In this document: positions 1 to 22,946 of the stretch, one piece after another
Layout: each line of letters begins with the position of its first letter
Numbering within the stretch: the first letter of the stretch is position 1
Source of the DNA: a virus
Virus record (IMG/VR): IMGVR_UViG_3300030117_000138
Coordinates: 1 to 24,762 of that record
Strand: one strand, 5' to 3'
DNA length: 24,762 nucleotides
Position numbers and translations under genes: made by a program
Notes under the pieces: generated by a model
Database searches by the model: none
Seen by the model: the letters and a program-made list of their open reading frames with translations, nothing else
Told to the model about the DNA's origin: nothing

Positions 1-1041
1 ACATTACAAGAAATGGATGTTGCAGGTAAGTTTGTTTTTGTAGGTGTAACTGCTAATGGTGTAATGCCACAAATAGCAACACCAGTTGGTTTATTAGAAC
101 CACATAAAATTCAAACTGCACTTGCTGAATCAATATTAATACAAGATAGTCCTTATATACCTGATTGGCATTTAGCAGTTGAATTATTAATTTTAGTGAT
201 AACAGTAAGTTTGGTTTGGTTATGTGTAAATATTTTTGGAATGACGCTAGGAATAATATTTACTGGTCTATTATTTTTTTTAACAATATTTTCTGGACAC
301 TATCTAATACAGCTTGGAATACTAATAGATGTAAGTTGGACACTAATTTCACAATTTATAACAGCGTCAATAGGATTTTATATAAGATTTAGAGAGCAAT
401 ATAAATTAAGACAACAGATTAAAAAACAATTTGAACATTATTTAGACCCTAGACAAGTTAAAAAATTACAAGATAACCCAGATTCTTTAGTATTAGGTGG
501 TGAACGCAGATATTGTACATTTTTGTTTACAGATGTTAGAGGTTTTACTGCTATGTCTGAAAAGTTAGAACCAGAAGAAGTTACAGAAATAATGAATAAA
601 GCCCTTACTATACAAGCAGATGCAGTTAAAAAGTATGGTGGTATGGTAGATAAATATATTGGTGATGCCATGATGGCTATTTTTAACGCACCGATTAACC
701 TTCCAGACCATGAAACTTTATCTGTGTTATGTGCTGAAGAAATACAAGAAAATATTAAAAAAGCTAATTTAGGTGTTGAAATAGGAATAGGTGTTAATAC
801 TGGATATGCTGTTATAGGCAATATGGGAAGCGAAACTAGGTTTGATTATACCGCTATAGGTGATGCAGTAAACCTTGCTGCTAGGCTTGAAAGCTCTACA
901 AAGGAAGTTGGAGAAGATATTGTTATTGGATATAATACAATTCATGTAGAAAATTTTAGTTCTGAAATAATATTAAAAGAATTAAAAAGTATATATGTAA
1001 AAGGTAAAGAAAAACCAATACAAATATATACAATAGATTAA
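1..1041 (+). CDS. CHASE2-type membrane class III adenylate cyclase, 5' end outside window
   Basis: The frame is open from base 1, so the gene starts upstream; the first ATG (13) lies inside a domain. The order is: the end of an extracytoplasmic CHASE2 sensor (GKFVFVGVTANG, then ATPVG), about three membrane helices (roughly 170-400), a short linker (LDPRQVKKL), and a complete class III cyclase catalytic domain from about 500. Catalytic features are all present: metal-binding Asp in FTDVRGFT (532-534) and in IGDAMMA (664-666), adenine-selecting Lys (652-654) and Asp of FDYTAIG (844-846), and transition-state Asn and Arg in VNLAARLE (871-873, 883-885). This predicts cAMP synthesis from ATP. The stop is 13 bases before the holin ATG, with AAAGGA between them, so it reads as part of the phage lysis operon. 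A host fragment joined by assembly error is the alternative, but base composition and spacing match the phage genes. Confidence 0.92.
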   Translation, partial: TLQEMDVAGKFVFVGVTANGVMPQIATPVGLLEPHKIQTALAESILIQDSPYIPDWHLAVELLILVITVSLVWLCVNIFGMTLGIIFTGLLFFLTIFSGHYLIQLGILIDVSWTLISQFITASIGFYIRFREQYKLRQQIKKQFEHYLDPRQVKKLQDNPDSLVLGGERRYCTFLFTDVRGFTAMSEKLEPEEVTEIMNKALTIQADAVKKYGGMVDKYIGDAMMAIFNAPINLPDHETLSVLCAEEIQENIKKANLGVEIGIGVNTGYAVIGNMGSETRFDYTAIGDAVNLAARLESSTKEVGEDIVIGYNTIHVENFSSEIILKELKSIYVKGKEKPIQIYTID

Positions 1042-1054
1042 TTAAAGGAATTTT

Positions 1055-1534
1055 ATGAAAGCAATATTAAAAAATATAGTAGGTGCTGTTGCACCAACAT
1101 TAGGCACAGCAATTAGTGGACCTTTAGGTGGAATGGCTATGGGTAAAATAGCTGAAGTGTTAGGCGTATCTAATGACCAAAAATCTATACAACAAGCTAT
1201 ACAAAATGCTACACCAGAGCAAATGCTAGAACTTAAAAAAGCTGAACAAGAGTTTGAAGTACAAATGAAAGAACTTGATGTAGATGTATTTAAGTTAGAA
1301 GTAGCAGATAAACAAAATGCTAGAGGTATGTTTAGCAAAGACTGGACTGCCCGTATTATAGGTTTATTTACCATAGGTGGTTTTTTAGGTTATATATTTT
1401 TAGTTACTTTACAACCACCAGAACAAAATTCTGAAGCACTTATAAATTTAGTGTTAGGTTATTTAGGAGGGTTAGCAAGTGCAATTATTTCGTTTTATTT
1501 CGGAGCATCTCATACCAGCGACAAAGGAGAATAA
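1055..1534 (+). CDS. Holin of the three-transmembrane (GTA-type) family
   Basis: This 159-residue protein has an N-terminal Gly/Ala-rich amphipathic or hydrophobic segment (IVGAVAPTLGTAISGPLGG, residues 8-26), a charged helical middle, and two strong hydrophobic helices near the C-terminus (about residues 103-120 and 130-150). The ending ...SFYFGASHTSDKGE and the central DKQNARGMF...DWTARI resemble the holin_3TM family. Such proteins make membrane lesions that release the endolysin. It sits directly before the lysozyme gene: its TAA ends at 1534 and the lysozyme ATG is at 1536. The start at 1055 is preceded by AAAGGA. Family assignment is from recalled sequence pattern; the lysis role is backed by the neighbour. 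Confidence 0.85.
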   Translation: MKAILKNIVGAVAPTLGTAISGPLGGMAMGKIAEVLGVSNDQKSIQQAIQNATPEQMLELKKAEQEFEVQMKELDVDVFKLEVADKQNARGMFSKDWTARIIGLFTIGGFLGYIFLVTLQPPEQNSEALINLVLGYLGGLASAIISFYFGASHTSDKGE

Positions 1535-1535
1535 C

Positions 1536-1985
1536 ATGAATATATCACAAGAGGGTTTATCTTTAATTAAAAAGTTTGAGGGTTGTGAGCTTGAAGCTTA
1601 CAAATGTGCAGCAGGAGTTTGGACAATAGGTTATGGTTCAACTAAAGGTGTAAAAGAGGGTGATACTATTACCCAAGAAGAAGCTGATGAATTGTTATTA
1701 CACGAAATGGAAGAATACGAAGGTTATATAAATGACTTGGTTGAAACTAATTTAAAACAAAACGAATTTGATGCTATGGTTTCATGGGTATTTAATCTTG
1801 GACCAGCTAATTTAAAAAATTCAACTTTGTTAAAAGTGTTAAATAGTTCACATCCAGATTGGAATGATGTACCAGCACAAATAAAAAGATGGAATAAAGC
1901 TGGTGGAAAGGTTTTACAAGGTCTAATAAGAAGAAGAGAAGCAGAAGCCTTACTATTTGAAGGCAAAGAATGGCATGAGGTTTAA
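1536..1985 (+). CDS. Endolysin, T4-type lysozyme (glycoside hydrolase 24)
   Basis: This 149-residue muramidase would cleave the MurNAc-GlcNAc bond of peptidoglycan. The catalytic triad has exact T4 spacing: Glu15, Cys24 and Thr30 (E-x8-C-x5-T) within KFEG...YKCAAGVWTIGYGST. Cys replaces the Asp20 of T4 lysozyme, a substitution known to be tolerated there and found in other phage lysozymes. Further family marks are the QNEFDAMVSWVFNLG region (about residues 72-86) and LIRRREAEALLF near the end. No N-terminal signal or anchor is seen, so export should depend on the adjacent holin. The start at 1536 is chosen over an in-frame start at 1479 because AAGGAG lies at 1524-1529 and the upstream one would run back into the holin gene. 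Confidence 0.96.
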   Translation: MNISQEGLSLIKKFEGCELEAYKCAAGVWTIGYGSTKGVKEGDTITQEEADELLLHEMEEYEGYINDLVETNLKQNEFDAMVSWVFNLGPANLKNSTLLKVLNSSHPDWNDVPAQIKRWNKAGGKVLQGLIRRREAEALLFEGKEWHEV

Positions 1986-1987
1986 CT

Positions 1988-3844
1988 ATGCCATTAGCAA
2001 AGTATGTATTTAAACCAGGTATAAATAAAGAAGGTACTAATTATAGTAATGAAGGTGGCTGGTTTGATGCAGATAAAGTTAGATTTCGTAAAGGTAGACC
2101 TGAAAGAATAGGTGGTTGGCAAAAACAAAGCACAGATAGTTTTATAGGTACTTGTAGAAAAATTTATCCTTATAAAGTAGCTGATGGTACTGATTATATA
2201 ACTTTAGGCACTCATCAAAAATTTTATGTATTACAAGGTAATGTTTATTACGATGTAACACCTATTAGAAGTACAACATCTGCAGGAGATGTAACATTTG
2301 CAGCAACAGATGGAAGTACAACTATTACAGCTACAGATACTTCTCATGGTGCAGTAGAAGGAGATTTTGTTACATTTAGTAATGCTGCTAGTCTAGGTGG
2401 TAATATTACTGCTGCAGTTTTAAATCAAGAGTATCAAATAGATAGTGTTCCAACTGCTAACACATTTACTTTTACAGCTACTGCAACTGCTAATTCAAGT
2501 GATGAAAGTGGTAATGGTGGTAGTTCTACAGTTGGTACATATCAATTAAATTCTGGATTAGATGTTTATGTTAAATCTACTGGCTGGGGTTCAGGTACAT
2601 GGGGTGCTGGAAGTTGGGGTGCTGCTACTGATTTATCTTTTACTAATCAATTAAGATTATGGTCAATAGATAATTTTGGTGATGATACAGTATTAAATCC
2701 AAGAGCTGGTGGTATTTTTTATTGGGATGAATCTTCTGGATTAAGCACAAGAGCAGTTAATATTTCTACTTTAAGTGGTGCTAGTGATGTACCAACAGCA
2801 GTATTACAAACAATGATTTCTGATGTTGATAAACACGCAATAGCTTTTGGTTGTAATCCAATAGGTTCTTCTGCTATTGACCCTTTATTAGTAAGATTTT
2901 CAGATACAGAAAGTATTACAGATTGGACACCAACTGCAATAAATCAAGCAGGTGGAGTTCAACTATCTATGGGTTCAACCATTATAGGTGCATTAAGAAC
3001 AAGACAAGAAATACTTATTTGGACAGACGCAGGTATAATTTCCATGAGATTTGTAGGTGCACCATTTGTATTTTCATTTAATGAAGTAGCTCATGGACCA
3101 TCTTTAATTGGACCTAATGCAGCAGTAAATGCTAATAATAGTGTTTATTTTATGGATAATGGTGGATTTTATATTTATTCAGGTTCTGCACAAAGACTAC
3201 CTTGTACTGTATTAGATTATGTTTTAAGTGATTTGAATCAAGGACAGGCACATAAAGTATTTGGTGCAGTCAATGATAGTGCTAATGAAATTATGTGGTT
3301 TTATCCTTCAGGTACAAATACAGAAATAGATAAATATGTTATGTATAACTATTTAGAACAAGTATGGTCTATTGGTACAACATCAGATAATTTTGTAAGA
3401 ACTGCTTGGGATGAAGCTTTAATTTTAAATAACCCAATAGCAGCAAGTAAAAATGATAGTACAGTAAATGTTAATTATCTTTATGCACATGAAATAGGAC
3501 ATGGAGACGATGGTAGTAATTTTAGTGCATATATAGAATCTAGTGATTTTGACTTAGACCCTGATGGTGAAAAGTTTATAGCGGTAAATAGAATAATACC
3601 TGATATACAATTTAGAGACCAACAATCTACATCTGATGATGTAACTATTACAATTAAAGGTAGAAATTATCCATTAGAAGATTTATCTACTTTATCTACT
3701 GTATCAGTTACACCAGCTTCTACATTTACTAATACAAGAGCTAGAAGCAGACAATGTGCAATAAGAGTATCTAATTCATCTAGTGATTATGGTTGGAGAC
3801 TTGGCGATTTAAGATTAGATATAAGACCAGATGGTAAAAGATAA
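1988..3844 (+). CDS. Probable tail hub / packaged-DNA stabilisation protein (P22 gp10-like)
   Basis: This is a 618-residue beta-rich protein. The N-terminus (FKPGINKEGTNYSNEGGWFD, then VRFRKGRPERIGGW) is a pattern I associate with virion structural proteins of marine short-tailed phages. Residues about 93-218 form a Thr/Gly/Ser-rich beta module (GDFVTFSNAASLGGNITAA) ending in Trp/Gly repeats (GWGSGTWGAGSWGAA). The rest has the short strand-turn units of a beta-propeller, and the C-terminus (CAIRVSNSSSDYGWRLGDLR) resembles the end of P22 gp10. It is longer than P22 gp10 (about 470 residues), which the inserted module could explain. The start follows GAGGT at the end of the lysozyme gene. The virion role is likely; the exact tail position is inferred. 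Confidence 0.6.
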   Translation: MPLAKYVFKPGINKEGTNYSNEGGWFDADKVRFRKGRPERIGGWQKQSTDSFIGTCRKIYPYKVADGTDYITLGTHQKFYVLQGNVYYDVTPIRSTTSAGDVTFAATDGSTTITATDTSHGAVEGDFVTFSNAASLGGNITAAVLNQEYQIDSVPTANTFTFTATATANSSDESGNGGSSTVGTYQLNSGLDVYVKSTGWGSGTWGAGSWGAATDLSFTNQLRLWSIDNFGDDTVLNPRAGGIFYWDESSGLSTRAVNISTLSGASDVPTAVLQTMISDVDKHAIAFGCNPIGSSAIDPLLVRFSDTESITDWTPTAINQAGGVQLSMGSTIIGALRTRQEILIWTDAGIISMRFVGAPFVFSFNEVAHGPSLIGPNAAVNANNSVYFMDNGGFYIYSGSAQRLPCTVLDYVLSDLNQGQAHKVFGAVNDSANEIMWFYPSGTNTEIDKYVMYNYLEQVWSIGTTSDNFVRTAWDEALILNNPIAASKNDSTVNVNYLYAHEIGHGDDGSNFSAYIESSDFDLDPDGEKFIAVNRIIPDIQFRDQQSTSDDVTITIKGRNYPLEDLSTLSTVSVTPASTFTNTRARSRQCAIRVSNSSSDYGWRLGDLRLDIRPDGKR

Positions 3845-4047
3845 TGGCAAATCCTAAATCAATAGTATTACCTTTAGCACAACAAGAATATAGTTCCGCA
3901 GATGAGGCAGTTACAAGAAGAATAATGGAACAAGCAATACAAGATTTAGCTATAGAAGTAGATAAATTACAAAGATTACAAAGTGTTGTAGTTAGTAAAG
4001 GTTTAAAAAGACATCAATTTTTATTAATGGGAATGAAGCATGGCTGA
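3844..4047 (+). CDS. Small virion-region protein of unknown function (67 aa)
   Basis: The start overlaps the previous stop in TAATG (3842-3846), and its own stop overlaps the next gene by eight bases (ATG at 4040, TGA at 4045-4047), so it is translationally coupled on both sides. The protein is mostly helical, with a heptad-like middle (DLAIEVDKLQRLQSVVV), and ends in the short RHQFLLMGMKHG. I do not recognise a named family. Position between the tail-hub-like gene and another small structural-type gene suggests a virion or assembly role. The coding call rests on the coupling and on codon use matching its neighbours. Confidence 0.75.
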   Translation: MANPKSIVLPLAQQEYSSADEAVTRRIMEQAIQDLAIEVDKLQRLQSVVVSKGLKRHQFLLMGMKHG

Positions 4048-10164: not shown

Positions 10165-13100
10165 ATGGCTGAATACGATATTGGCAAAGGGAAAAAAATA
10201 AAAATTCCAGATAATTTAGACCCAGAAACAAGATTACAATTAGCTGAAGTTGTTAAAGATAAATATGGCATTGATATAAATCAAACATCAGCACTAGGAC
10301 AAGTAGGCGAGTTTATAAAAGCAATACCAAGAGGTGCTGCTGGATTAGCTTTAGATGTGCCTACAGGTATTGTTGGTTTATTTGATATTGGCAACGACAG
10401 TAACTTATATAAAGGTCTTGAAGGATTACAAGATAGATTAAGAGAAGATTCTGCATTAGCAGCAGACCCACGATATGCTGATAAGTATTCTACAAAACTA
10501 GGAGAAGGTATAGGTTCATTCGGACCATTCTTAGGTGCAGGTATGGTAGGTAGAGCACTAGCTAAAGCACCAGGAGCAGCTAAGGGCATACTATCACCAA
10601 CATTTACAGCACCAACAGCTTTAGCAATACCAACAGGTATAGCAGCACAAGGCGATAGACTACAGATGGCTAGAGAAATGGGCGAAGATGTAAGTGGTTT
10701 AACTGAAACTACTGCTGAATTATTTGGTGGTCTTATAGGTATAACTGAAGTATTACCTGTTGCTAGTATTTTAGGTAAAGTATCTAGTAAAACAGATTTA
10801 AACATAAAAGAAAGATTAGTATCTGCATTACAATCAGGTGCATTTGAAGGTGGACAAGAGGTAGCTGCAAGTATATTGCAAGATTTAACAGCTAAAGGTC
10901 TTTATAGTGAGGACTTACCTATAGCAGATAGTATGTTTGAAGAGTTTACTATTGGCGGTATTATTGGTGGTGCTGCTGATTTAGTTGTTACTAGCATGGC
11001 AGGTAAAAGTTCTGCTAGAAGAAAACAACTAGAAGAAGATAATTTAAGAGCTGATGAAAATAAAGCTCAGTTAATAAATGCAAAAAAAGCTGACCTTGCA
11101 ATGGAACAAGGCACTCTTGAAGAAATACAAGATATACCACCTACTATAGTTCCACAACTTATAGCACCTGAAGAACTTGGAGTAGAGCCTTCAGTAGAAG
11201 TAATAATGACTCCACAAGAACAATTTGCTGTTGTTGATATTACTAATCCTGAAGCTCCTGCACAAGTTGATATAAAAGATACAGAAATAGAAGCTATAAA
11301 AGTAAGAGATAAGATAACAAAAGACTTTAATAATAAAAAATTAAAATCAAAACTAGATAACGATACATATAACTTAGGACTAATTAATAGTTCTACTGCT
11401 TACGAAATAGGGCAAAGTTTAGAAGATAGTAGAGCTAGTGATGTAACTATTCAACAATTAATAAATAGTGTGCCTAAAGATTCTAAACAAGAGGTAATTC
11501 TTAGAGGTTTAGTAAATAGTTTTGTTGCACAAAATCCAGGCAAAACTTCTCGTAGCTATCCTAGATTATCTATGACAAAAGCTAAAGAATTACTAACGCC
11601 TAAACAGTTTAATGAATTTGCATCTGCATATGCACAAGGAGTATTTAAAGCTTCTGAAAAAAATGGTGAGCCTTCTATTGTTGCAGATAAAGATAAACCA
11701 AATACATCAGCTAAATATATAAAAGAAATAGCTGAATCTAAAAATATAGATTTAGATTTTCAATCACCTGCTGTTCAATATGCAGCAGAAAAATACACAG
11801 GTACGCCTGAGTTTAAAAAAATGAAAAAAGGTCAAAAAGAATTATTTTTGGCTAAACTTCATTCACTTCCTAAGTTCAATTCAAGAACAACTTTCCCAGA
11901 CTTTAGACCAAGAGATTATTCTGCACAAGATATGGCAGATTTTGTTGCTGAAATGAAAAGCAATAATATGACTTTTAATAAAGCATCCTTAAAACAAATG
12001 GATAGGAATGAACAATTCCTTGATGATTTAATTTATAGCAATAGAGCAGAAAAAATAGAAGGCACTAATAACTATAAGATAAGAGATAACTTTGAGTTTG
12101 ATATAGCTAGAAGAGCAGAAGGTTTTAATGAAACACCAGAAGAGTTTGGTGCAAGACTTACTGCAGAAGGTAAGTTGCCTCCAGAAACTATTGCAGAATT
12201 AGTACAACAAGAAACAACAAAACAAGAAAGATTATTACCACCTGCAGAAGTAATACCTAAAACTATTAATTATGCTGAGACTTTAGAGCAAGGCAAAACT
12301 AATAAGTTTGCACAAGAAATAAGAAAAACAATGGATGCTAGAGGTCTTAAAGAGACTGGTATTGTTATAAGTGATGACATAATCTCTACTAGCACATTAA
12401 GACAAATAGAAGGTGAAATAAAGTACGACCCTAGTCAAGTTAGAGCAACAGAAACACAAGGAGCTGTAGAAGGAGAATATGATAGAAATACAGATACTAT
12501 TTTCTTATCTCTTAATGCAGTAAATCCTGATGGTAGTGCTACTGATGTAGAGATACAAGAAAGACTTAACAAAGTATTAGACCATGAGATGATTCATGCT
12601 CTTCGTGCAAAAGATTTAATTACTAAAGCAGAATATAGTTATTTAACTAAAATGGTTAAGCAAACTAAATTTCCTAAACAAAATCAAACTTTTTATCAAG
12701 AAGCTATTAATAGAACTAAGCGTGAGTTTGAAAATAGAAATTTAACAGATGCGTTTAAAGAAGAATATATTGTAGAAGAAGCTATAGCAGAACTATTTAG
12801 ACAAAAAGATTTACTGGTTAATACTCCTCCTAAAGTAGAAGGTATCTACAATAAGATTATTGAGTTCTTTAAATCTATGGGTCAAGCTATGCGTAGCTCA
12901 GGATATAAGAGTGCTACAGAAATATTTAATGATATTGAATCAGGCAGGATTGGCAGAAGAGAAAGAGGTGTAGTAAGAACTACTAGGATTGGAGATAAGG
13001 GATTACAATCATTTAACTTTGCTACAGACTTTTCACAATTAGATGAATCTGCGGTTAGACCAACAATAATTCCTGGTGATGAAATAAAACAAACTCTAAA

Positions 13101-16100
13101 GCCTACAGGTATTAGACCTTTAACTATACCAAAGCCTAAACCAACACCTCCTACGCCTCCAGCAGGTCCTACAACTCCTCCTGCAACACCTTCTACAACA
13201 CCTACAACTATTTATAATACTAAAAAATTAACAGATAAAGAGTATATAGCTGAAAGGTCAAAAATTCTTAAAGGATTGCAAGATGCAAAAGTATTAGATA
13301 AAGATATATTTGATAAAGATGGTAATGTAACTAAAACTATTAAAGGTAATAATGATTCTATAAAAATGATGAAATGGTTAATTGATAATTCACCAAGTCA
13401 AGATTACAAAATTATTGCACAAAAAGTTCATAAATCTTTATTAGCATTAAAAAAACAAGGTAGAACATTTCCTCTTAAATTAGAAGTAGGTGAAAAACAA
13501 CCTGATATGCGAGGTACAGGACAAGCTGCTATACAGCCAAGTGATATGAATCCAATGGAACCATATAATTATAAAACATTCACTATGCTTGTTAATGATG
13601 GTAGCTTAAAAAGAATAAATGCATTTGCTAATACTTCTGAATGGAGAAGAGGCAATGGAGTTCATTTTGAAGCTTTATTACATGAAGGAATACATCAAGC
13701 TACATTAGCTCAAATATATGCTGCTCAACATAATTTAATTACTAGAAAAGGAACTAAAACATTTCAAGAAAGTGCATCAGGTAAAAAAGTTAAAGCTGCA
13801 CATAAAGAACTTGCTATACAAGCAAATAGAGTAAAAGGTTATTATCAAGAAAGAATGAGATTTTATAAAAATCTTGCTGCAAAAATAACAAAAAGAGAGA
13901 CAGCCGAAATACAAAAAAAAGCAATAGAAGAGTACAAATCTATTTATAATAATGCACCTACTATAGAAAAAGATTTAGCAGATATTTATATTATTAAAGA
14001 TTCAACAGGTTTTATATATGCTAGAGATGACAACTCTTTTAATGGCGTATCTGTTCAAAAGAGAATGTTTAATGATTATAGAATTAAATATCAATTATTT
14101 TCTAATGAAGCTCAATATAATGAAGATGTATCAGAGTTATTAACTTTTGGATTAACAAATAGAGACTTCCAAGAAATGCTTGAATATATACCTTTAGGCA
14201 AAGATGCTACTAATAGTGTATGGAATAAATTTGTAGAAACAATTAGAAAATTATTAGAGATACCTGCAAAATTAAATACAGAATTATCTGCATTTCTTAA
14301 AAATGCTTCTACTTTATTAGACCTTAAAACAGAAGGTTTAATAGCACCAACTCCTGTAGGAGAAACTGCTGCTCCTATAGATAAAGAAATACCTACATTT
14401 AGTAGAGCAGCAGACCAAGCTTATTTTAATAGAGAAAGAAGAAATCAAATAATATCTAATTTAGAAGCAGGTATAAAAAATAAACAAGCACAGTTAAATC
14501 AAGAAAGAGGACTTATGACTGATGCTACTGCTAAAAGATTAGAAAGAGAAATAATAAATCAAAGAAATGAAATAGCTGAGTTAAAAGCTGGAGATTTACC
14601 TTTTTTTAGTAGAGCAGCTACAGAAACACAACCTCCATACATGGACTTTAATCGTCAACAAATTAGAGACTTTAGTAGTAATAAAGTTGGTTTTTATAAT
14701 GGAGTAGAAATACCTTTAACTCATGTTACAAGAATGAATGTTGATGATTTTTTAAAACTTAGCACAATTAGTCAAAATCAAATTGATGAAATAATAGAAG
14801 AAGGTCCATCAGTTTTTGGTTTTTCTCAACAAGATGAACCTGGCTCATTTAAACCTATAAATAATAGAAGAATGGCTGATGCTGTATTTGACCCAGAAAT
14901 TGCAGATACTGCATTAACTGCTTCATTGCCAAGTTTACAAATTAAAAATGATGGTCAAGTAATTAGCCATGAAGGCAGACATAGAGTTGCATTAATAAAA
15001 CAAGGTGGTGGTAGAACTGTTCCTGTATTTATACATTTTCCTGAAGGTAATGTAGAACAAAATATACCTAATCCTAGTGGTCAAACTTTGCAAGAACAGG
15101 GTGTTACTTTTTTAAAAAATCAATATCCTGGAATATTTAAAGATGAATATGGTGATTTTCAAACAAATGAATTTAGTAGATTTGCTGTTCCTATAAATAA
15201 ACTAAGAGAAATTGCACCTTTACATAGAGATAGTGCCCAAACTAAAGATAAATTAGATTATGCAGTACAAGTTGCTACTGCTCCTGATATTTTAGAAAGC
15301 ACAAAAGATACAGTTGCAAGTGCATCTGAATATGATATTAGGATGGCAAGATTTTTAGCATCACAAGATATACCTACATTTAGTAGAACTAATTTAATAC
15401 CTAAAGATACTGAAGTTCCTTTTGATTGGGCAAGTAATAATCGTTTTGAAACTGGTGCAATAATAGACCAATTAAAAATGAGTAGAGAAGAAGGTGGTAA
15501 TAGAGATAATCCTGCACCACTTAAAATGGCTATAGTTGAAGCATTTAAAGGTAGGAAAAACAGACCTTTACTAAGAGCTAGTAAAAAATTCTTAGAAAAG
15601 TTTACAAACAAAAAAGGTAATTTAGTTTTATTTAGAGCTTTAAATATTCCTGAAGGTGAAAAGATTAAAAACTATGGACAGCTTCCACAAGATTTATTTG
15701 CAAGTACAACATTAGATAGTAGAAAAGCATTAGAAATAGGTCGTATGTTATTTAATAGAGCAAAAGAAGAAAGAAGTGAAACATGGAATATTGAAATACT
15801 TAGATATGAAGTTCCTATGAGTAAGGTAAAAGGTTATGTGCCTATGTTACTTAAAGCTATGGAATCAGATTATATTACAGACTTTAGAAGTGATATGGCT
15901 GGGTCAGGAATTATGTACCAAGAAGAATTAGATGCAGCAATAGAAGAAGCAGATGCAAAAGGAGATTTCTATAAATATCAAGGAGAACAAACAATAGAAG
16001 AATTATTTGCCGATGCTATGTATAAATATGAAGAATATATAGCAGAAGCAGAAGTTGTTGCTGACCTTCGTGGCATCAAACCAACATATCAATATTCTCC

Positions 16101-19100
16101 AGAAATAAAAGATAGACAAGCTAGTTTAATTAATGATGTGCCATTATTTAGTAGAGGTAGAAGAGATAGTAAAAGAAAGTGGGATGAACAATATTATTAT
16201 GTTGCTAAAAAAGAAGATGCTAATAGAATTTTAAAAGAAGGTTTTGCTGTTGATGATTCACAATTTTTTTATAATCCAGATACAGAAATAGAAACTCCAG
16301 GATTAGTAGTATTTACTAATCCAGTAGATGCTATTGCTTATCATAGAAGCGTAGATTGGAGAGAAGAACTATCTGATTTAGTTTTAATAGCTGTTAAAAA
16401 AGGTACTGACAGAGATATTGGTGCTTTAAATTGGCAACCTAATCCAAATTCTCTTGGATTACAAGGTCAACTACGAGGTCTTAGTGGAGAAAAAACTAAA
16501 GGATTACTTAAAGATGAAACAAATACATCTTTATATTTAGATGCAGATAATAATTTAGATTATTTTAAAAATGTTAATAACATATTAGGTAGTGCTACAT
16601 TAGAAGAACTTACTCAAACAAAAATTAATCCATACTTTGGTAGAGCAATAGATAGAACTGGTGAAGTTCCGCAAAGATTTTATAGTCCTGAAATGACTGA
16701 TATGGGAGACCCATTACCTTCAGAACAAGTTAAATCTGTTATGGAAGGTAAAGGATTACCTATGAAACCAATAGGTAATGAAACAAGAGGTTTAGCTTCA
16801 TCAAAAGAAGAACTTGCAAATATTGTTACTAAATATATGAATGATATTGCTAATATATTAAATCCACCACCAAATACACAAAAAAATATACAATTAAAAC
16901 AAGCAATAGAAGAAGCCGAAGAAACAGTTAAACAAACACCTAGGGGTTCAATACCTTATTATAATTTAAATGCCTCAGACACAGCTTTAAAGATTGCTAT
17001 AGACTTTAATAAAGACTTATCTGCTAAGGCACCTGATGATATACCTAATTTTTCAAGACCTACTCTTGATGGATTGCAAGATAATCTACAAGAGTTTATT
17101 AAAAGAACAGGTGGAGAAATATTACCTGACCAATCTTGGGGTGCAAGAGTAATAGAAATTGTCAAAGACCCTATTACATCTATTAAAAATTTCTTTAAAG
17201 AGTTTAGACAAAGATATATTGACCAATACGATACTGCTACCAAAGTACTATTAGCTGGTAAAAATAAAGAATGGTATTTAAAAATAGATGAAAGAACAGG
17301 TAAATTAAGAATAAATCCTAAAACTGGAAAACCTTGGACAGAAGAAGAAGCAATAGCAGCAGCAGAACAAGTAACTCTTGCTAATATGTTTGCAAATGCA
17401 GGTGCAGAACAATCAGTAAGAATGTCTGATAAATCAAGAGGTGTATTTCAAGGTATGCTTACAAGAGGAATACCAACTGATTTAATAGATGGAGTTGAAT
17501 CTTTAGTAAAAACAATACCTTTACCTCTTGTTGATGCTAATGGTAATAAAACTGGTAAAACAGGTGGTCTTATACAAATACTTGCACCATTATTTTCTAA
17601 TCTTAAATTAAATTTAGAAGCTGTTTTTAAAAGTTATGCTATGTTAAAAAGAGCAAAAAGTCTTGATGAAAGTGGTAGAGAAATAGATACACCAGTTAAA
17701 CCTAAAGACTATGTTCTTATACAGCAAATAGAACAACAACATCCTGAAGTGGTAGAAGTTTATAATAATTATCAAAATTGGAATAATGCTTTAATTAAAC
17801 TTGCAGAAAGAAAAGGTATTTTAAGTGCAGAACAATCTGCATTATGGAGAGAACATTCTTCTTATTATCCTTTCTATAGGCAAATGGTTGATGATAGTGG
17901 CATTAAAGGACCTAAAATTGCAGGTGGTTCACTACCAGGAAATCCATTAGATATACAAATAAAAGGTTCAGAAGAAATTATTGACGCAGACCCAATAGAA
18001 GCTATATCAAGAAACTCATTATCTATTCTTACAGCAGCATTAAAAAATGATGCAATGAATAAAATAGTTACAAACTTAGAAACAATGGGATTAGCTCAAA
18101 AAATATCTGCAAAAAACGCAGGTACAACTGATAGCTTATTCTTCTTTGAAAATGGTAACAAGCAACACTATCAGGTAGATGACCCTAGACTGGTCTATAG
18201 TTTACAAAATGTTGGAGGAGTAGCTCCAGGTGCCATAGGAAAATTTTTAGCAGTACCAGCAGGGCTGCTTAGAGATACAGTTACAAGAGACCCAGGCTTT
18301 GTTGTTATAAATATTTTAAGAGATACCTTATCTTCTGCTGTAACAAGTGGTGCACCATATACGCCTATCATTGATTCAGTTAAAAATATGTTTGGTAGCA
18401 TGGAAGAATTAGAACAGTTTGGTGTTCTTGGTGGCTATGACTATTCTGTTGATGAGGGTAGTGTAAAGCAATTTATTACTAGAACTATGCGACAACAGGG
18501 ACTTACACCAAATAATGGTATGTCTCCTACAAGTGCTTTCTTTAAGCTATGGGATGGTCTTGGAGCACTTACTACTAAATCAGATGGTGCAACTCGTAAA
18601 GCAGTCTATGATGGTGTTTATAAACAGTTAAAAGAGCAAGTTTATAGAAATCCTAAAACTGGTAAATACGAAAATATGCCTGAAGCAGTTGCACAATCAG
18701 AAGCGGCTTATCAAGCACAAGAAATAATTAACTTTGGAAGGCGTGGTTCTGATTCATTATTTAGAATTATTACTGCTGCAATACCATTCTTAAATGCAAG
18801 AATACAAGGTCTTGATGTATTACATAGAGGATTAACTGGACAATATTCTGCTGTAGAAAAACAACAAGTTGGAGAATCACTAAAAGATGTGCAATCAAGA
18901 ATATTTAGAAGAACATTCTTTAATGCAGGATTACTTGTAAGTCTAACAGCACTTTACTACATGATGGTAAGTGATACAGATGAATACAAAAATCTTAAAC
19001 GAGAAGTAAGAGATGATAACTGGGTCATGCCTATAGGCAATGGTAATGCAGTTAAGATACCTATTCCATTTGAAGTAGGTATGTTATTTAAAGCTATACC

Positions 19101-19905
19101 AGAAAGAGTATTTGATATGACTATGGGCGATGATGCTTTTACAAGAAAGTCTGTTGATGAAGCTATGACATCTATTGGCAGACAGGCTCAAACTTCTTTC
19201 AACATACCATTCTTTCAACCTGGTGGTGGAATACAATTATTAAAACCAATATCAGAAGTAATAAATAACAGAAATACTTTTACTAATACAGAGATTGTTC
19301 CCTACTATCAACAAAAGAAAGAACCTGGACTACAATCAAGACCAACTACCAATGAGTTTGCAAGAGTATTAGGTGAAGCTCTTAATTTATCTCCTGCAAA
19401 GATAGAGCATGTTATGAGAGGTTATACAGGAACACTTGGTGGATATGTATTAAGTGTTATAGATACTATCACTAGAGGAGCTACAGGAAGTCCTCTAATA
19501 CCTTCCAACTATCAACTAAGTAAAATGCCAGTCTTTAATAGACTATTACTTGATTTAGATAAGTCGGGTGGTTATCAGCAACAGTTTTATGAGTTAAGAA
19601 ATGAGGTTGACAGGGCAGTAGCAACTATCAACTCTCTACAAAAACAAAGAAGATTTGATGAACTATCAGCTTACAGAAGCAATATGCAAGGTGTGTTGAA
19701 TGTCAAAGGTCAAGTGAGAGCGATAGAAAGATACTTAGATAACTGGAGAAAGCGTAGAGATAGAATCTATCAAGATGAAAACCTATCTATAACAGTCAAG
19801 TCAGATATGATAAGAGATTTAGAACTAGAAAGAGATATGCGACTAGCTATGGTTCCTGAATTGAGGAAGAAAGCTAACATTCCTATTTTCAGTCTTAACC
19901 TCTAA
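10165..19905 (+). CDS. Giant polyvalent virion protein: two metallopeptidase motifs, ParB-like and ART-like modules, LPD38-like C-terminus (3246 aa)
   Basis: Domains in order: residues 45-290, hydrophobic/amphipathic segments; 740-880, zincin 1, with HEMIH at 807-811 and third-ligand region EEAIAE at 871-876; 980-1014, Pro/Thr linker; 1015-1400, zincin 2, with HEGIH at 1173-1177 and later E-D-V-S-E at 1320-1324; 1415-1477, coiled coil; 1484-1735, module with HEGRHRVALIKQ (GRHR 1604-1607), ParB-like; 1742-1991, candidate ADP-ribosyltransferase with Arg1824, STT 1847-1849 and ExE 1961-1963; 1998-2292, second ART-like region (YYYVAKKEDANRILKEGF, GLVVFTNPVDAIAYH); 2299-3246, LPD38-like region with RDPGFVVINILRDT and a membrane helix near 2917-2936. 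Modules from 1409 on are separated by (I/L/V)PxFSR. The size compares with the ejected phage N4 virion RNA polymerase. Zincin motifs are plain; the ART and ParB calls are tentative. Its place after internal-type genes suggests it is packaged and ejected. Confidence 0.88.
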   Translation: MAEYDIGKGKKIKIPDNLDPETRLQLAEVVKDKYGIDINQTSALGQVGEFIKAIPRGAAGLALDVPTGIVGLFDIGNDSNLYKGLEGLQDRLREDSALAADPRYADKYSTKLGEGIGSFGPFLGAGMVGRALAKAPGAAKGILSPTFTAPTALAIPTGIAAQGDRLQMAREMGEDVSGLTETTAELFGGLIGITEVLPVASILGKVSSKTDLNIKERLVSALQSGAFEGGQEVAASILQDLTAKGLYSEDLPIADSMFEEFTIGGIIGGAADLVVTSMAGKSSARRKQLEEDNLRADENKAQLINAKKADLAMEQGTLEEIQDIPPTIVPQLIAPEELGVEPSVEVIMTPQEQFAVVDITNPEAPAQVDIKDTEIEAIKVRDKITKDFNNKKLKSKLDNDTYNLGLINSSTAYEIGQSLEDSRASDVTIQQLINSVPKDSKQEVILRGLVNSFVAQNPGKTSRSYPRLSMTKAKELLTPKQFNEFASAYAQGVFKASEKNGEPSIVADKDKPNTSAKYIKEIAESKNIDLDFQSPAVQYAAEKYTGTPEFKKMKKGQKELFLAKLHSLPKFNSRTTFPDFRPRDYSAQDMADFVAEMKSNNMTFNKASLKQMDRNEQFLDDLIYSNRAEKIEGTNNYKIRDNFEFDIARRAEGFNETPEEFGARLTAEGKLPPETIAELVQQETTKQERLLPPAEVIPKTINYAETLEQGKTNKFAQEIRKTMDARGLKETGIVISDDIISTSTLRQIEGEIKYDPSQVRATETQGAVEGEYDRNTDTIFLSLNAVNPDGSATDVEIQERLNKVLDHEMIHALRAKDLITKAEYSYLTKMVKQTKFPKQNQTFYQEAINRTKREFENRNLTDAFKEEYIVEEAIAELFRQKDLLVNTPPKVEGIYNKIIEFFKSMGQAMRSSGYKSATEIFNDIESGRIGRRERGVVRTTRIGDKGLQSFNFATDFSQLDESAVRPTIIPGDEIKQTLKPTGIRPLTIPKPKPTPPTPPAGPTTPPATPSTTPTTIYNTKKLTDKEYIAERSKILKGLQDAKVLDKDIFDKDGNVTKTIKGNNDSIKMMKWLIDNSPSQDYKIIAQKVHKSLLALKKQGRTFPLKLEVGEKQPDMRGTGQAAIQPSDMNPMEPYNYKTFTMLVNDGSLKRINAFANTSEWRRGNGVHFEALLHEGIHQATLAQIYAAQHNLITRKGTKTFQESASGKKVKAAHKELAIQANRVKGYYQERMRFYKNLAAKITKRETAEIQKKAIEEYKSIYNNAPTIEKDLADIYIIKDSTGFIYARDDNSFNGVSVQKRMFNDYRIKYQLFSNEAQYNEDVSELLTFGLTNRDFQEMLEYIPLGKDATNSVWNKFVETIRKLLEIPAKLNTELSAFLKNASTLLDLKTEGLIAPTPVGETAAPIDKEIPTFSRAADQAYFNRERRNQIISNLEAGIKNKQAQLNQERGLMTDATAKRLEREIINQRNEIAELKAGDLPFFSRAATETQPPYMDFNRQQIRDFSSNKVGFYNGVEIPLTHVTRMNVDDFLKLSTISQNQIDEIIEEGPSVFGFSQQDEPGSFKPINNRRMADAVFDPEIADTALTASLPSLQIKNDGQVISHEGRHRVALIKQGGGRTVPVFIHFPEGNVEQNIPNPSGQTLQEQGVTFLKNQYPGIFKDEYGDFQTNEFSRFAVPINKLREIAPLHRDSAQTKDKLDYAVQVATAPDILESTKDTVASASEYDIRMARFLASQDIPTFSRTNLIPKDTEVPFDWASNNRFETGAIIDQLKMSREEGGNRDNPAPLKMAIVEAFKGRKNRPLLRASKKFLEKFTNKKGNLVLFRALNIPEGEKIKNYGQLPQDLFASTTLDSRKALEIGRMLFNRAKEERSETWNIEILRYEVPMSKVKGYVPMLLKAMESDYITDFRSDMAGSGIMYQEELDAAIEEADAKGDFYKYQGEQTIEELFADAMYKYEEYIAEAEVVADLRGIKPTYQYSPEIKDRQASLINDVPLFSRGRRDSKRKWDEQYYYVAKKEDANRILKEGFAVDDSQFFYNPDTEIETPGLVVFTNPVDAIAYHRSVDWREELSDLVLIAVKKGTDRDIGALNWQPNPNSLGLQGQLRGLSGEKTKGLLKDETNTSLYLDADNNLDYFKNVNNILGSATLEELTQTKINPYFGRAIDRTGEVPQRFYSPEMTDMGDPLPSEQVKSVMEGKGLPMKPIGNETRGLASSKEELANIVTKYMNDIANILNPPPNTQKNIQLKQAIEEAEETVKQTPRGSIPYYNLNASDTALKIAIDFNKDLSAKAPDDIPNFSRPTLDGLQDNLQEFIKRTGGEILPDQSWGARVIEIVKDPITSIKNFFKEFRQRYIDQYDTATKVLLAGKNKEWYLKIDERTGKLRINPKTGKPWTEEEAIAAAEQVTLANMFANAGAEQSVRMSDKSRGVFQGMLTRGIPTDLIDGVESLVKTIPLPLVDANGNKTGKTGGLIQILAPLFSNLKLNLEAVFKSYAMLKRAKSLDESGREIDTPVKPKDYVLIQQIEQQHPEVVEVYNNYQNWNNALIKLAERKGILSAEQSALWREHSSYYPFYRQMVDDSGIKGPKIAGGSLPGNPLDIQIKGSEEIIDADPIEAISRNSLSILTAALKNDAMNKIVTNLETMGLAQKISAKNAGTTDSLFFFENGNKQHYQVDDPRLVYSLQNVGGVAPGAIGKFLAVPAGLLRDTVTRDPGFVVINILRDTLSSAVTSGAPYTPIIDSVKNMFGSMEELEQFGVLGGYDYSVDEGSVKQFITRTMRQQGLTPNNGMSPTSAFFKLWDGLGALTTKSDGATRKAVYDGVYKQLKEQVYRNPKTGKYENMPEAVAQSEAAYQAQEIINFGRRGSDSLFRIITAAIPFLNARIQGLDVLHRGLTGQYSAVEKQQVGESLKDVQSRIFRRTFFNAGLLVSLTALYYMMVSDTDEYKNLKREVRDDNWVMPIGNGNAVKIPIPFEVGMLFKAIPERVFDMTMGDDAFTRKSVDEAMTSIGRQAQTSFNIPFFQPGGGIQLLKPISEVINNRNTFTNTEIVPYYQQKKEPGLQSRPTTNEFARVLGEALNLSPAKIEHVMRGYTGTLGGYVLSVIDTITRGATGSPLIPSNYQLSKMPVFNRLLLDLDKSGGYQQQFYELRNEVDRAVATINSLQKQRRFDELSAYRSNMQGVLNVKGQVRAIERYLDNWRKRRDRIYQDENLSITVKSDMIRDLELERDMRLAMVPELRKKANIPIFSLNL
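14389..17058. repeat. Recurring (I/L/V)-P-x-F-S-R module-boundary motif
   Basis: Five internal copies lie in the giant gene: IPTFSR at 14389-14406, LPFFSR at 14596-14613, IPTFSR at 15370-15387, VPLFSR at 16138-16155 and IPNFSR at 17041-17058. A sixth, partial copy (IPIFS) closes the protein at 19879-19893. The first and third are identical over 18 bases. The first and second share TTTAGTAGAGCAGC. The fifth uses different Ser codons, so the motif is kept as protein. Each copy sits between regions that look like separate domains. Confidence 0.85.
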
Positions 19906-20306: not shown

Positions 20307-20682
20307 CTATTTTTTTTATCACCAATTCACATCTAGGATTTTCTTTATCAATCCCACCATATTTATAAATAACTTTTTTAATTTGTTTACTACTATCATC
20401 CTCTAACACACCTGCTTTAACTAAAGCATCGCAAGTAAACTTGTCAATAATAGAACAAGGATTACTTACATCTAGTCTTCTTTTACTTTTTGCATAATAG
20501 GTATAAATCAATACAACAGGTTCTTCGTATTTAGGATGACTAATCCTATCAACTAAATTGTCTGCATAAATCTTCTTGGCATTTGATAGTGTTCTGTAAT
20601 GAGCATTACGATAGTTGTTTAAGTTAAGGATAAACTTCTTATTCTTTGTGTAGTAAACCTCTAGGGGTAAATCAATCTTCAT
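20299..20682 (-). CDS. rusA: RusA-like Holliday junction resolvase
   Basis: At 127 residues it is close to the usual RusA size (about 120). The N-terminal region (LNLNNYRNAHYRTLSNAKKI) has the family's N-x-x-R-x-x-H type opening. The acidic metal site is in RRLDVSN (Asp71), IIDKFTCDALVKAGVLEDDS (Asp80, Asp85, Asp95, Asp96). RusA enzymes cut four-way DNA junctions as dimers. In phages they resolve recombination and replication intermediates before packaging. The usual R-x-D-x-D-N is RLDVSN here, with Ser-Asn where Asp-Asn is commoner, a modest change. The ATG at 20682 overlaps the stop of the Ref-like gene by 11 bases. Confidence 0.88.
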   Translation of the reverse strand: MKIDLPLEVYYTKNKKFILNLNNYRNAHYRTLSNAKKIYADNLVDRISHPKYEEPVVLIYTYYAKSKRRLDVSNPCSIIDKFTCDALVKAGVLEDDSSKQIKKVIYKYGGIDKENPRCELVIKKIDQ

Positions 20683-20974
20683 CTAACAACTTATTAACTT
20701 GCTCTAATAACTCTTCTTCTGTGCCGTAAGCTTCCTCAAATCTTTTCTTATATGGATGTCTGCTTATAGGTCTAAATCTATTGCCTTTACGATGATGGTC
20801 AAAGCAAAGAGGTAATACAGAAAAATGTGCATTTGGTTTTGTTTTGCCAATAACATGATGAATTTCAGCAGGAGTTATACATCCATTAGTATTTCTACAA
20901 ACAATGCAACCTAGCTGACTTACCTTGTCCATGTGTTCAGCTTCTTTCTTTGTTGGTTTTCTACCTTTAATCAA
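20672..20974 (-). CDS. Ref-like (RecA-dependent) HNH nuclease
   Basis: This 100-residue protein has a zinc knuckle CIVC (Cys23, Cys26), IHHVIG (His39, His40), LPLCFDHH (Cys57, His60, His61) and SRHPYKKRFEEAYGTEEELL near the end. The last block and the HH...C..HH layout match the catalytic part of phage P1 Ref, an HNH-type endonuclease that acts on RecA-coated DNA. The predicted start is TTG at 20974, overlapping the GIY-YIG stop by eight bases. It is favoured because RKPTKKEAEHMDKV looks family-conserved and a CAGG sits upstream; the next ATG (20932) would remove it. The gene lies with other recombination genes, consistent with DNA processing. Confidence 0.82.
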   Translation of the reverse strand: MIKGRKPTKKEAEHMDKVSQLGCIVCRNTNGCITPAEIHHVIGKTKPNAHFSVLPLCFDHHRKGNRFRPISRHPYKKRFEEAYGTEEELLEQVNKLLDED

Positions 20975-21425
20975 AACGAATACCTGTATTTATGTTTACT
21001 ACTCTTCTTATGGGTCTTATCTTATGAGTTTTATTATATTTTGGTATATAACTCTCTATTAGTTTTTTTTCCCAATGTCTTTTTCTACTTTCTTTACAAT
21101 ATAAAATCCTAAACGAATCAAATTTTTTTTCAGATTTAATGTGAGTACATACCCTAGCATAAGGATTTATACTTTCTCCTACATAAACAACAACATTCTT
21201 CATAAATAAAATATATACTCCATGTTTAAATATTTCGTTGACTTTAAACTTTCTTCTATGTGATGCTGTCGTAGAGTATTGAGTTTTTATTTCCTTTTCT
21301 GAAAGATAATGATGTGTCAACATTCCTGTTGAACCTACTGTATCTACTGAAATAGTATTACCACAAGATGTTGTTCCTAATTCTAATTTTCCTGTTGAAC
21401 TTATATGATTAACATTTATGCCCAT
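20967..21425 (-). CDS. Stand-alone GIY-YIG nuclease, possible homing endonuclease
   Basis: This is a 152-residue protein. The GIY-YIG core starts at GVY (69-71) and YVG (81-83), nine residues apart, with catalytic Arg91 (YARVCTH), candidate Glu119/Glu124 in HWEKKLIESYIPKYN, and Asn131. The core breaks one DNA strand via a metal-bound Glu. The N-terminal 60 residues are unusual: Ser/Thr/Gly-rich with an internal STGKL/STGML echo, and no known DNA-binding module is evident. Base use looks more AT-rich than in the flanking recombination genes. Its start overlaps the 38-codon gene by 17 bases and lacks a strong ribosome binding site; its stop overlaps the Ref-like TTG. A mobile-gene origin is plausible but unproven. 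Confidence 0.85.
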   Translation of the reverse strand: MGINVNHISSTGKLELGTTSCGNTISVDTVGSTGMLTHHYLSEKEIKTQYSTTASHRRKFKVNEIFKHGVYILFMKNVVVYVGESINPYARVCTHIKSEKKFDSFRILYCKESRKRHWEKKLIESYIPKYNKTHKIRPIRRVVNINTGIRFD

Positions 21426-21525
21426 TTTTTATTTTCTTTTTCTTTCTCTTGTTCCCAAATATCTTCTCAAAGTTCTCGTTATACTTATCTTTGTCGTAGG
21501 GTCTTTGTCTGCTACCCTTTGTCAT
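21409..21525 (-). CDS. Small conserved phage protein MTKGSRQRP... (38 aa)
   Basis: This short frame was read directly from the minus strand. The ATG at 21525 overlaps the TGA of the upstream gene as ATGA. The product begins MTKGSRQRPYDKDKYNENFE and continues KIFGNKRKKKKIKNGHKC. The opening (M-x-K-G-S-x-x-R-P) and the closing N-F-x-x-I-F-G resemble a tiny protein found in many phage early regions, so I regard it as a real gene of unknown function. The Lys-rich tail after IFG is longer than I would expect. It may come from sequence joined to it when the GIY-YIG gene was placed downstream. Confidence 0.75.
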   Translation of the reverse strand: MTKGSRQRPYDKDKYNENFEKIFGNKRKKKKIKNGHKC

Positions 21526-21860
21526 GCTCCATATCTCTTTCTTTCTTCTCTAGCATTAACCATTTTAGTTCTCCATTCCTCAAACCCTACTTCTAAGGCT
21601 CTTAACTCAACCTTGACTGCACTTAGTTGACCTTTAGCAACCGCCACAGCTAACCTAGATTGATACACTTCTTCTTTGTTTTCTGCAAAGTTATCTTGAC
21701 CACTTGCAGTTTTAATGCCCTCAGAAAGAGCAACAGCTTTCCATAAAGCTATTACTCTTTTAACATCTGCTTCTGACTTTAATAACTCGTATTCTGCTTT
21801 CTGCATCATAGGAGCAATGTTTCTTATTTGAACTTGCCAATTCTCTATCTGTTCATCCAT
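21522..21860 (-). CDS. Conserved helical phage protein of unknown function (112 aa)
   Basis: The start at 21860 is chosen because ATGGATGA makes an eight-base overlap with the stop of the 62-residue gene; an upstream start at 21881 would overlap more. The protein is almost all helix: MDEQIENWQVQI, then EYELLKSEADVKRVIALWKA, GIKTASGQDNFAENKEEVYQ, then AVAVAKGQLSAVKVELRALE and FEEWRTKMVNAREE. The A-x-x-x-L-x-x-x-E pattern and the FEEWRT ending recall a phage family seen next to recombination genes, to which I can give no function. A coiled-coil oligomer or accessory to a recombination enzyme is possible. Confidence 0.82.
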   Translation of the reverse strand: MDEQIENWQVQIRNIAPMMQKAEYELLKSEADVKRVIALWKAVALSEGIKTASGQDNFAENKEEVYQSRLAVAVAKGQLSAVKVELRALEVGFEEWRTKMVNAREERKRYGA

Positions 21861-22041
21861 TAGCTTTTCTCCAACCAACAACTAAGAAATCTATATCTTC
21901 AAAGTTTTCATCTTCTAAAGCTTCATCGGGCAACCATTGAGATAGTTGTTCGTGAGATGTACCACCAAACCAAGCGAAGCCCTGTTCACTTTGCATTGGT
22001 TTCCAACCTTCTTTTCTAATATCTTTAATATTTGCTGACAT
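21853..22041 (-). CDS. Small acidic protein of unknown function (62 aa)
   Basis: AGGGGGAAA stands ahead of the ATG at 22041, and the stop of the 30-codon membrane gene directly abuts it. The sequence is IKDIRKEGWKPMQSEQGFAW, then FGGTSHEQLSQWLPDEALED and ENFEDIDFLVVGWRK. I do not recognise the family. It is acidic and Trp-rich. The block GTSHEQL recurs as GTTSHEHL in the 87-residue protein nearby, including a shared 15-base DNA run. Tight coupling on both sides supports it as a gene. Confidence 0.78.
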   Translation of the reverse strand: MSANIKDIRKEGWKPMQSEQGFAWFGGTSHEQLSQWLPDEALEDENFEDIDFLVVGWRKANG

Positions 22042-22134
22042 TTATTTCCCCCTTATATCTTTTTCGTTTACATAAATTGTTGCTATCAATACTATTGAAA
22101 GTATTGAGTAAGAAATTATTTCAATTATTGTCAT
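22042..22134 (-). CDS. Single-membrane-helix microprotein (30 aa)
   Basis: This short frame was read directly from the minus strand. The product is MTIIEIISYSILSIVLIATI followed by YVNEKDIRGK: one hydrophobic helix of about 20 residues and a short charged tail, which by the positive-inside rule is probably cytoplasmic. GAGG lies a few bases upstream of the ATG at 22134. The stop (22042-22044) touches the ATG of the next gene. An in-frame ATG at 22179 would give 45 residues but has no ribosome binding site and lies inside the overlapping 28-codon frame. Function is unknown; small phage membrane proteins may affect host membrane proteins, superinfection or lysis timing. Confidence 0.65.
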   Translation of the reverse strand: MTIIEIISYSILSIVLIATIYVNEKDIRGK

Positions 22135-22136
22135 AA

Positions 22137-22223
22137 CTACCTCACTCTGAAAATGTAAAACAAACATCTTAAACGCCATTCAGATAGATGGCGTAAGTGT
22201 TTTGGTATCTTTGTTCTATCCAT
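22137..22223 (-). CDS. Short basic microprotein (28 aa)
   Basis: This short frame was read directly from the minus strand. The ATG at 22223 shares its A with the TAA of the 87-residue gene (TAATG), and the TAG ends two bases before the ATG of the membrane microprotein. The product is MDRTKIPKHLRHLSEWRLRC then LFYIFRVR: very basic, with a possible amphipathic helix. GGGG lies upstream at a plausible distance. The frame exactly fills the space between two genes, the main reason to believe it. I know of no function. Confidence 0.58.
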   Translation of the reverse strand: MDRTKIPKHLRHLSEWRLRCLFYIFRVR

Positions 22224-22486
22224 TATTCAATCCCCATCTTGTTTTTAAAGTGTTCATCTCTTGCTTCTTCTATCTTAAAAAACAGATAGTCCATAAGATG
22301 TTCGTGAGATGTAGTTCCAACACCATCTTTAACATCTTTAATTTGTTCAATCAAAGTTCTGTACGCAGACATAAACTCAAAAAATATATACTCGTCTATG
22401 TTTTCTTCAATTTGCACTACCAAATCTTTTCCGTAGGTATATTTATCATCAGAAATGATTTGGGTTTTTCCACTTGGATTTGCCAT
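22223..22486 (-). CDS. Unknown early protein (87 aa)
   Basis: The ATG at 22486 has GGGAGAAG upstream and lies inside the last 38 bases of the 57-codon gene. The sequence runs from a short beta-like N-terminus (GKTQIISDDKYTYGKDLVVQ) into helices (FFEFMSAYRTLIEQIKDVKD, and DYLFFKIEEARDEHFKNKM). The block GVGTTSHEHLMDYL echoes GTSHEQLSQWL in the 62-residue protein. There are no Cys or His clusters and no membrane segment. I do not recognise a family; it is co-expressed with recombination genes. Confidence 0.78.
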   Translation of the reverse strand: MANPSGKTQIISDDKYTYGKDLVVQIEENIDEYIFFEFMSAYRTLIEQIKDVKDGVGTTSHEHLMDYLFFKIEEARDEHFKNKMGIE

Positions 22487-22622
22487 TGTTCTTCTCCCTT
22501 TTATTTGGTTTATCTAAGTCTAGTGAATCAATGAGCAGATGTGATTCTATCCACTCATTTTTCACTCCCTCTTTCTTCAAAGCATCTTCCAATGCTTTCT
22601 TAAATGCTTTTGATTTACCCAT
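22449..22622 (-). CDS. Small basic early protein (57 aa)
   Basis: This short frame was read directly from the minus strand. A near-ideal GGAGGGAG precedes the ATG at 22622, 11 bases after the previous stop. The product starts MGKSKAFKKALEDALKKEGV, then KNEWIESHLLIDSLDLDKPN, and ends in a Lys/Asn-rich tail that overlaps the next gene. The N-terminal half is an amphipathic Lys/Ala helix. The last 12 codons or so also carry the start site of the next gene, so the tail may be under little protein-level selection. Function unknown. Confidence 0.72.
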   Translation of the reverse strand: MGKSKAFKKALEDALKKEGVKNEWIESHLLIDSLDLDKPNKREKNNGKSKWKNPNHF

Positions 22623-22633
22623 TACTCCCTCCT

Positions 22634-22945: not shown

Positions 22946-22946
22946 A

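Follow-up and report, generated by a model that had tools for sequence, protein, structure and literature searches.

A truncated cyclase gene at the contig start

The window analysed here spans 24,762 bases, the whole of an IMG/VR virus record, and opens inside a gene whose product joins a CHASE2 sensor domain and membrane helices to a class III adenylate cyclase, and genes resembling those for phage lysis follow on the same strand. This raises the question of what a sensor-linked cyclase does in a phage genome, and whether its proper partners are the lysis genes beside it. We consider it likely that the gene is the cut-off last member of a curli (type VIII secretion) cassette carried by phages and that it encodes an active cyclase; the genes that it most constantly accompanies in relatives would lie off the window contig.

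In the list of open reading frames, the first plus-strand frame lacks its 5′ end, which falls beyond the contig start, and encodes the last 346 residues of a protein of ~584 residues. The full-length copy in a closely related viral contig (L003) has 584 residues, and the ~238 N-terminal residues, comprising most of CHASE2, are missing from the window; the complete receptor-type cyclase of the original prediction is therefore complete only in relatives. The remaining CHASE2 segment scored 26.6 bits against PF05226 in the window (cut-off 26.3), and 22.2 bits, below the cut-off, when the truncated protein was searched alone; the full-length L003 protein reached 86 bits. The following helices were placed from the L003 model (residues 295–342 and 350–385, minus 238), their membrane nature being predicted from sequence, and both features, CHASE2 followed by helices, are thus seen. 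For the cyclase domain, PF00211 scored 70.6 bits on the window protein, phrog_35576 matches the protein end to end, and the catalytic region aligns with solved cyclases, e.g. Pseudomonas aeruginosa CyaB (3r5g). An AlphaFold2 model of the L003 cyclase (mean pLDDT 87.5, pTM 0.62) likewise matches class III cyclases of known structure in its C-terminal portion. The class IIIb-type CyaB and CyaC (1wc1) are alike in fold and sequence over the cyclase domain, but possess other sensor domains and are not phage proteins. The coordinates of all features are collected in Table 1.

Class III adenylate cyclases employ two metal-binding aspartates, a lysine with a threonine, serine or aspartate for the base, and an asparagine and an arginine for the transition state. 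All six positions are occupied in the window protein by residues which we take to have these roles, with the lysine and the threonine/serine presumably forming an adenine-type pair, as had been read from the sequence at the outset (canonical ATP-selecting and metal residues). The composition of the gene is also like that of the phage, as claimed, with 30% G+C in the first kilobase and 29–38% in 1-kb windows across the contig.

Table 1 Features of the window.
Feature	Position	Strand	Basis
CHASE2–membrane–class III adenylate cyclase, C-terminal 346 residues	1..1041	+	Open frame; PF05226, PF00211; phrog_35576
CHASE2 sensor domain, C-terminal part	16..204	+	PF05226, profile positions 185–254 of 257
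Membrane helices and linker to cyclase domain (predicted extent)	169..441	+	Helices of L003 model
Class III cyclase catalytic domain	514..1032	+	PF00211, residues 172–344; residue check; solved cyclases
Catalytic/substrate codons D178, K218, D222	532–534, 652–654, 664–666	+	
Catalytic/substrate codons T284, N291, R295	850–852, 871–873, 883–885	+	
Holin-like protein (weak label), first lysis-region gene, outside curli cassette	1055..1534	+	phrog_1544; GTA_holin_3TM sub-threshold in L003 homologue
Phage lysozyme (endolysin)	1536..1985	+	PF00959 (9.6e-48), phrog_7
RecA-dependent nuclease family	20672–20974	−	
GIY-YIG domain	20967–21425	−	
Sak-type annealing protein	22947–23657	−	
Exonuclease	23989–24762	−	

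Elsewhere in the window, a 3246-residue protein (10165–19905, plus strand) has, towards its C terminus, a Large polyvalent protein domain (LPD38), and the phage collection contained no DNA closely matching its gene. Recombination genes occupy the minus strand from 20672 to 24762. For one structural protein of the window, identity to known records does not exceed 38.5%, the value for HTVC023P being 34.0%.

Curli and FecR genes precede the cyclase in viral relatives

Two sets of viral loci were compared: the near set, the best 80 viral loci (L002–L081), and an HTVC008M-like set, the best 80 loci around the cyclase of phage HTVC008M, alongside loci anchored on CsgG. ‘Podovirus-like’ (near) and ‘HTVC008M-like’ are names of sets and imply no virion type. 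The loci of one set are relatives of one another, the sets partly share contigs (a single contig stands behind L003, L244 and L350), and gene labels come from profiles built on the same loci; upstream counts take in only loci with enough upstream sequence.

In L003 the cyclase is preceded, in order, by genes for an SNase-like nuclease, a 116-residue protein, CsgF, CsgG, a curlin-like protein and a FecR-domain protein, the last overlapping the cyclase gene by four bases. The same partners recurred throughout the near set, with FecR upstream in 67/67 loci, a curlin-like gene in 44/44 (the label being weak, at 15.2 bits against a PF07012 cut-off of 20.7), CsgG in 43/43 and CsgF in 42/42. Among the HTVC008M-like loci FecR was upstream in 36/37 and CsgG in 25/25; the exception, L232, lacks FecR despite 2.6 kb of room and has a curlin-like gene upstream instead. 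Approached from CsgG, the linkage was just as close, with a curlin-like gene in 70/70 loci, FecR in 64/64, the cyclase in 59/59 and CsgF in 74 of 75. The cassette therefore reads: one or two small proteins, CsgF, CsgG, curlin-like protein, FecR-domain protein, CHASE2 adenylate cyclase. FecR, CsgG and CsgF of the putative cassette are known from relatives and presumably lie upstream of the window too, beyond its first base, which is why the FecR and curli partners could not be seen in the window; an isolated gene that catches the eye at the contig edge finds its likely explanation in a cassette lying beyond that edge. The assumption that phages rarely carry such cyclases proved wrong for marine phages, since at least 597 of the 600 pattern-matching viral stretches listed encode a relative, and we dismissed the idea of a rare phage gene.

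The small proteins before CsgF (81–116 residues; L003:5960–6310, L010:3432–3728 and 3728–3973, L082:2152–2433 and 2433–2714) match phrog_18771, of unknown function, in those scanned from the near group, and no kinase domain was found in them with Pfam. A study of pelagiphage curli modules (PMC9599517) places a histidine kinase at this position, a name that looks doubtful if these proteins are what was so called. A separate CsgG match (38.6%) was found in GenBank OR851715.1, a 1,499-base ‘Salmonella phage’ record that possibly contains curli DNA of the host, submitted under a phage name.

Placement of the cyclase among viral and bacterial relatives

The relationship of the gene to bacterial cyclases was examined in a quick tree of 62 rows, comprising 24 viral copies (the window, 12 from the near group, 10 HTVC008M-like and that of phage Melnitz) and 38 of 80 bacterial loci. 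The viral copies split from the 38 bacterial copies with SH-aLRT support of 98, and the window cyclase falls in the same viral clade, nested with L003, L004 and L010 (SH-aLRT 99). The best 80 bacterial relatives, mostly from Alphaproteobacteria, are only 26–38% identical in the best segment, which, together with the position of the 38 in the tree across the supported branch, gives no support to recent gain from a sampled bacterium.

A chimera or a prophage edge also had to be considered, and the gene does lie truncated at the contig edge. The same junction of cyclase and lysis genes, however, is present in independent contigs, the window cyclase is 95% identical to that of L002 and 91% to that of L003, it nests among viral copies in the tree, and its composition is similar to that of the contig. 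We accordingly reject both possibilities and regard the gene as a genuine phage gene; that the assembly is at fault, or that bacterial sequence was fused to a phage contig at about base 1040, is scarcely credible.

Among the bacterial relatives, FecR was found within 1 kb of the related cyclase, outside curli, in 15 of the 53 loci with room on both sides. Viral profiles detected no curli genes beside the cyclase in the 80 loci, and CsgG was present in none of the ten genomes tested. Conversely, CsgF exceeded the cut-off in 3 of 289 sampled genomes, and neither cyclase nor FecR occurred within ~10 kb on each side of the three alphaproteobacterial curli loci, too few to conclude much. As FecR accompanies some of the bacterial cyclases and no curli genes were found there, FecR and CHASE2 pair up independently of curli in bacteria, and phages bring this pair and curli together. 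Two bacterial clusters described in the literature resemble this pairing. In the Burkholderia BiofilmReg operon a periplasmic FecR-domain protein lies beside a biofilm-linked CHASE2 membrane sensor, but the sensor acts through a histidine kinase instead of a cyclase, and the article makes no mention of curli (PMC5192318). A Campylobacterota cluster (PMC9239204) combines a CHASE2 adenylate cyclase with a FecR-domain protein, but also contains a phosphodiesterase and a TPR protein; both systems are bacterial.

Conservation of the active site

The six catalytic residues were intact in all 80 near loci and in 79/79 HTVC008M-like copies covering them (one of the 80 does not), including the cyclase of HTVC008M itself, and in 53/53 CsgG-anchored copies (59 rows, six not covering the site; this set partly overlaps the near set). 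Melnitz differs from the other viral copies scored in that its cyclase (L083:4942–6993) has a serine instead of the catalytic asparagine, and judging from this substitution it may be inactive. The window cyclase is under purifying selection, with dN/dS of 0.10–0.21 against ten relatives. As the active site is intact in the viral copies scored except Melnitz and dN/dS is low, the phage cyclase is probably active.

The FecR partner and its tail

A model of the FecR protein was of lower confidence (mean pLDDT 60.0, pTM 0.43), with residues ~30 to 200 modelled better. The best PDB matches of this confident part (E-values of 4e-4 to 6e-4) were 4m0h, a FecR-family anti-sigma protein, and 6ovk, the cell-surface (periplasmic) signalling domain of PupR, and the predicted fold fits, but does not show, a role for FecR as a periplasmic signalling partner of CHASE2.

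The C-terminal tail of the near-group FecR proteins may resemble a curlin repeat, possibly a new feature, and the evidence is mixed. A repeat model built from curlins of the HTVC008M group scored 5 bits or more on 51 of 78 near-group tails, compared to 17 of 1560 shuffled tails, and reached 0.3 bits at most on 24 bacterial FecR tails; 26 of 41 aligned FecR tails contain a Q-x-G-(1–3)-N motif, where shuffling gives an expectation of 2.7. Pointing the other way, only one of 37 FecR tails from the HTVC008M group stood out with this model, a repeat model from near-group curlins (one seed) gave no signal on FecR tails, the best of 481 other viral tails reached 7.2 bits, and the top score in a pooled test (13.7 bits) came from a shuffled tail. 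Pfam detected no curlin repeat in the six viral FecR tails scanned, the tail region of the model mostly falls below pLDDT 60, and related tails are not independent of each other.

Lysis genes and other readings of the cyclase

We consider the likeliest role of the cyclase to be a cAMP signal during infection that is gated by FecR and CHASE2. CsgG and CsgF would form an outer-membrane pore during infection and export curlin-like subunits; the periplasmic FecR protein would contact the CHASE2 domain to form a two-part sensor, its ligand reflecting either envelope state or curli export; and the cyclase, on receiving this signal, would convert ATP to cAMP, presumably to the benefit of the phage. 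The cAMP would act on a host receptor, or one that goes unrecognised, because the cAMP-binding domain PF00027 was found in none of the 22 viral records searched (including HTVC008M and Melnitz) and not in the window, which led us to discard a phage-encoded receptor carrying this domain. Taken alone, the two-part sensor mechanism is tentative, and we would put it at somewhat short of even chances. A more specific version, in which FecR and the cyclase let the phage monitor its own curli export, the curlin-like tail joining the nascent fibre or pore and the state of the fibre being relayed as cAMP that possibly times the adjacent lysis genes, is improbable on present evidence.

The position of the gene invites a different explanation, that the curli cassette and cyclase serve lysis, with either the curli pore or the cAMP signal timing lysis together with the adjacent lysis genes. 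The gene had been described as standing 13 bases before a holin: the spacing is correct, but the holin label is weak, as the product of the downstream frame matches phrog_1544, of unknown function, has no Pfam family at E 0.001, and the match of its L003 homologue to GTA_holin_3TM (E 0.05) stays below threshold. The order of cyclase, holin-like gene and lysozyme does recur in other viral contigs. In 63 of 76 near loci the four genes that follow include one for a holin-like protein, a spanin-like protein or a lysozyme, the holin-like gene coming directly next in 8/76 and after one small gene in 35/76; in a search anchored on the holin-like gene, a cyclase lay upstream in all 75 near-lineage loci with room, and of the 43 CsgG-anchored loci that extend far enough (5 kb), 29 have a lysis gene downstream. 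In some relatives an Rz-like spanin (phrog_739; L010:8943–9338) replaces the holin-like gene. The authors of the Melnitz study have also suggested a part in lysis for the curli pore (PMC9004378). Against this, 13 near loci showed no lysis-type gene, ten of them with four further genes visible (L065 shows three, L073 and L078 one each), and none was found within 3 kb downstream in 66 HTVC008M-like loci, a count made with near-group models that would miss unrelated lysis genes. As the linkage fails outside the near lineage, we reject the lysis operon as the defining context, and with it the claim that the cyclase is a lysis operon component as such: FecR and curli genes are the constant partners, and the place beside lysis genes is a property of the near lineage. 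Within that lineage the linkage to the holin-like gene is complete, so we keep a role in lysis as a rival, which we judge unlikely.

The original prediction also allowed that the cyclase might flood or decoy cyclic-nucleotide immune signalling in the manner of Pycsar systems. PycC models do match the cyclase domain (best 1.3e-28), but the match covers only that domain, as expected of class III cyclases generally, the base-selecting pair is presumably of the adenine type, and the constant neighbours of the gene are curli genes. We found no positive evidence for such a role and consider it very improbable. A cAMP signal gated by FecR and CHASE2 remains the reading that we favour.

Relation to known phage curli modules

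A phage curli cassette with FecR and adenylate cyclase is already published: Wittmers et al. 2022 (PMC9599517) describe a pelagiphage curli (T8SS) module with CsgF, CsgG, curlin, FecR and adenylate cyclase in the same order as in the near-lineage cassette, carried by podovirus- and myovirus-type marine phages, and propose an alphaproteobacterial origin with transfer between phage families. Our literature searches turned up no other paper joining phage curli and adenylate cyclase; curli genes of pelagimyophages were reported earlier, with the idea of ‘sibling capture’ (PMC7029224). Relative to the 2022 study, the window contig is a further, truncated example, and the linkage counts come from the present analysis.

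The cultured phages HTVC008M (KC465899; FecR labelled by Pfam) and Melnitz (MZ577098) both encode CsgF, CsgG, curlin, FecR, curlin and cyclase in order. They differ from the near lineage in the second curlin gene between FecR and cyclase and in having no adjoining lysis gene, and the window cyclase is 38.6% and 36.4% identical to their respective copies; Melnitz differs further in its catalytic asparagine, as noted above. In HTVC008M the protein between FecR and cyclase (L082:5890–7215) combines a PA14 domain with curlin repeats. The authors of the Melnitz study observed no clumping of infected cells in culture (PMC9004378).

In both phage sets curli genes, FecR and cyclase are linked almost without exception, which argues for cAMP signalling as a part of the workings of phage curli. 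The counts also give broader support to a known system of marine phages that joins a curli secretion pore to a dedicated cAMP sensor-enzyme.
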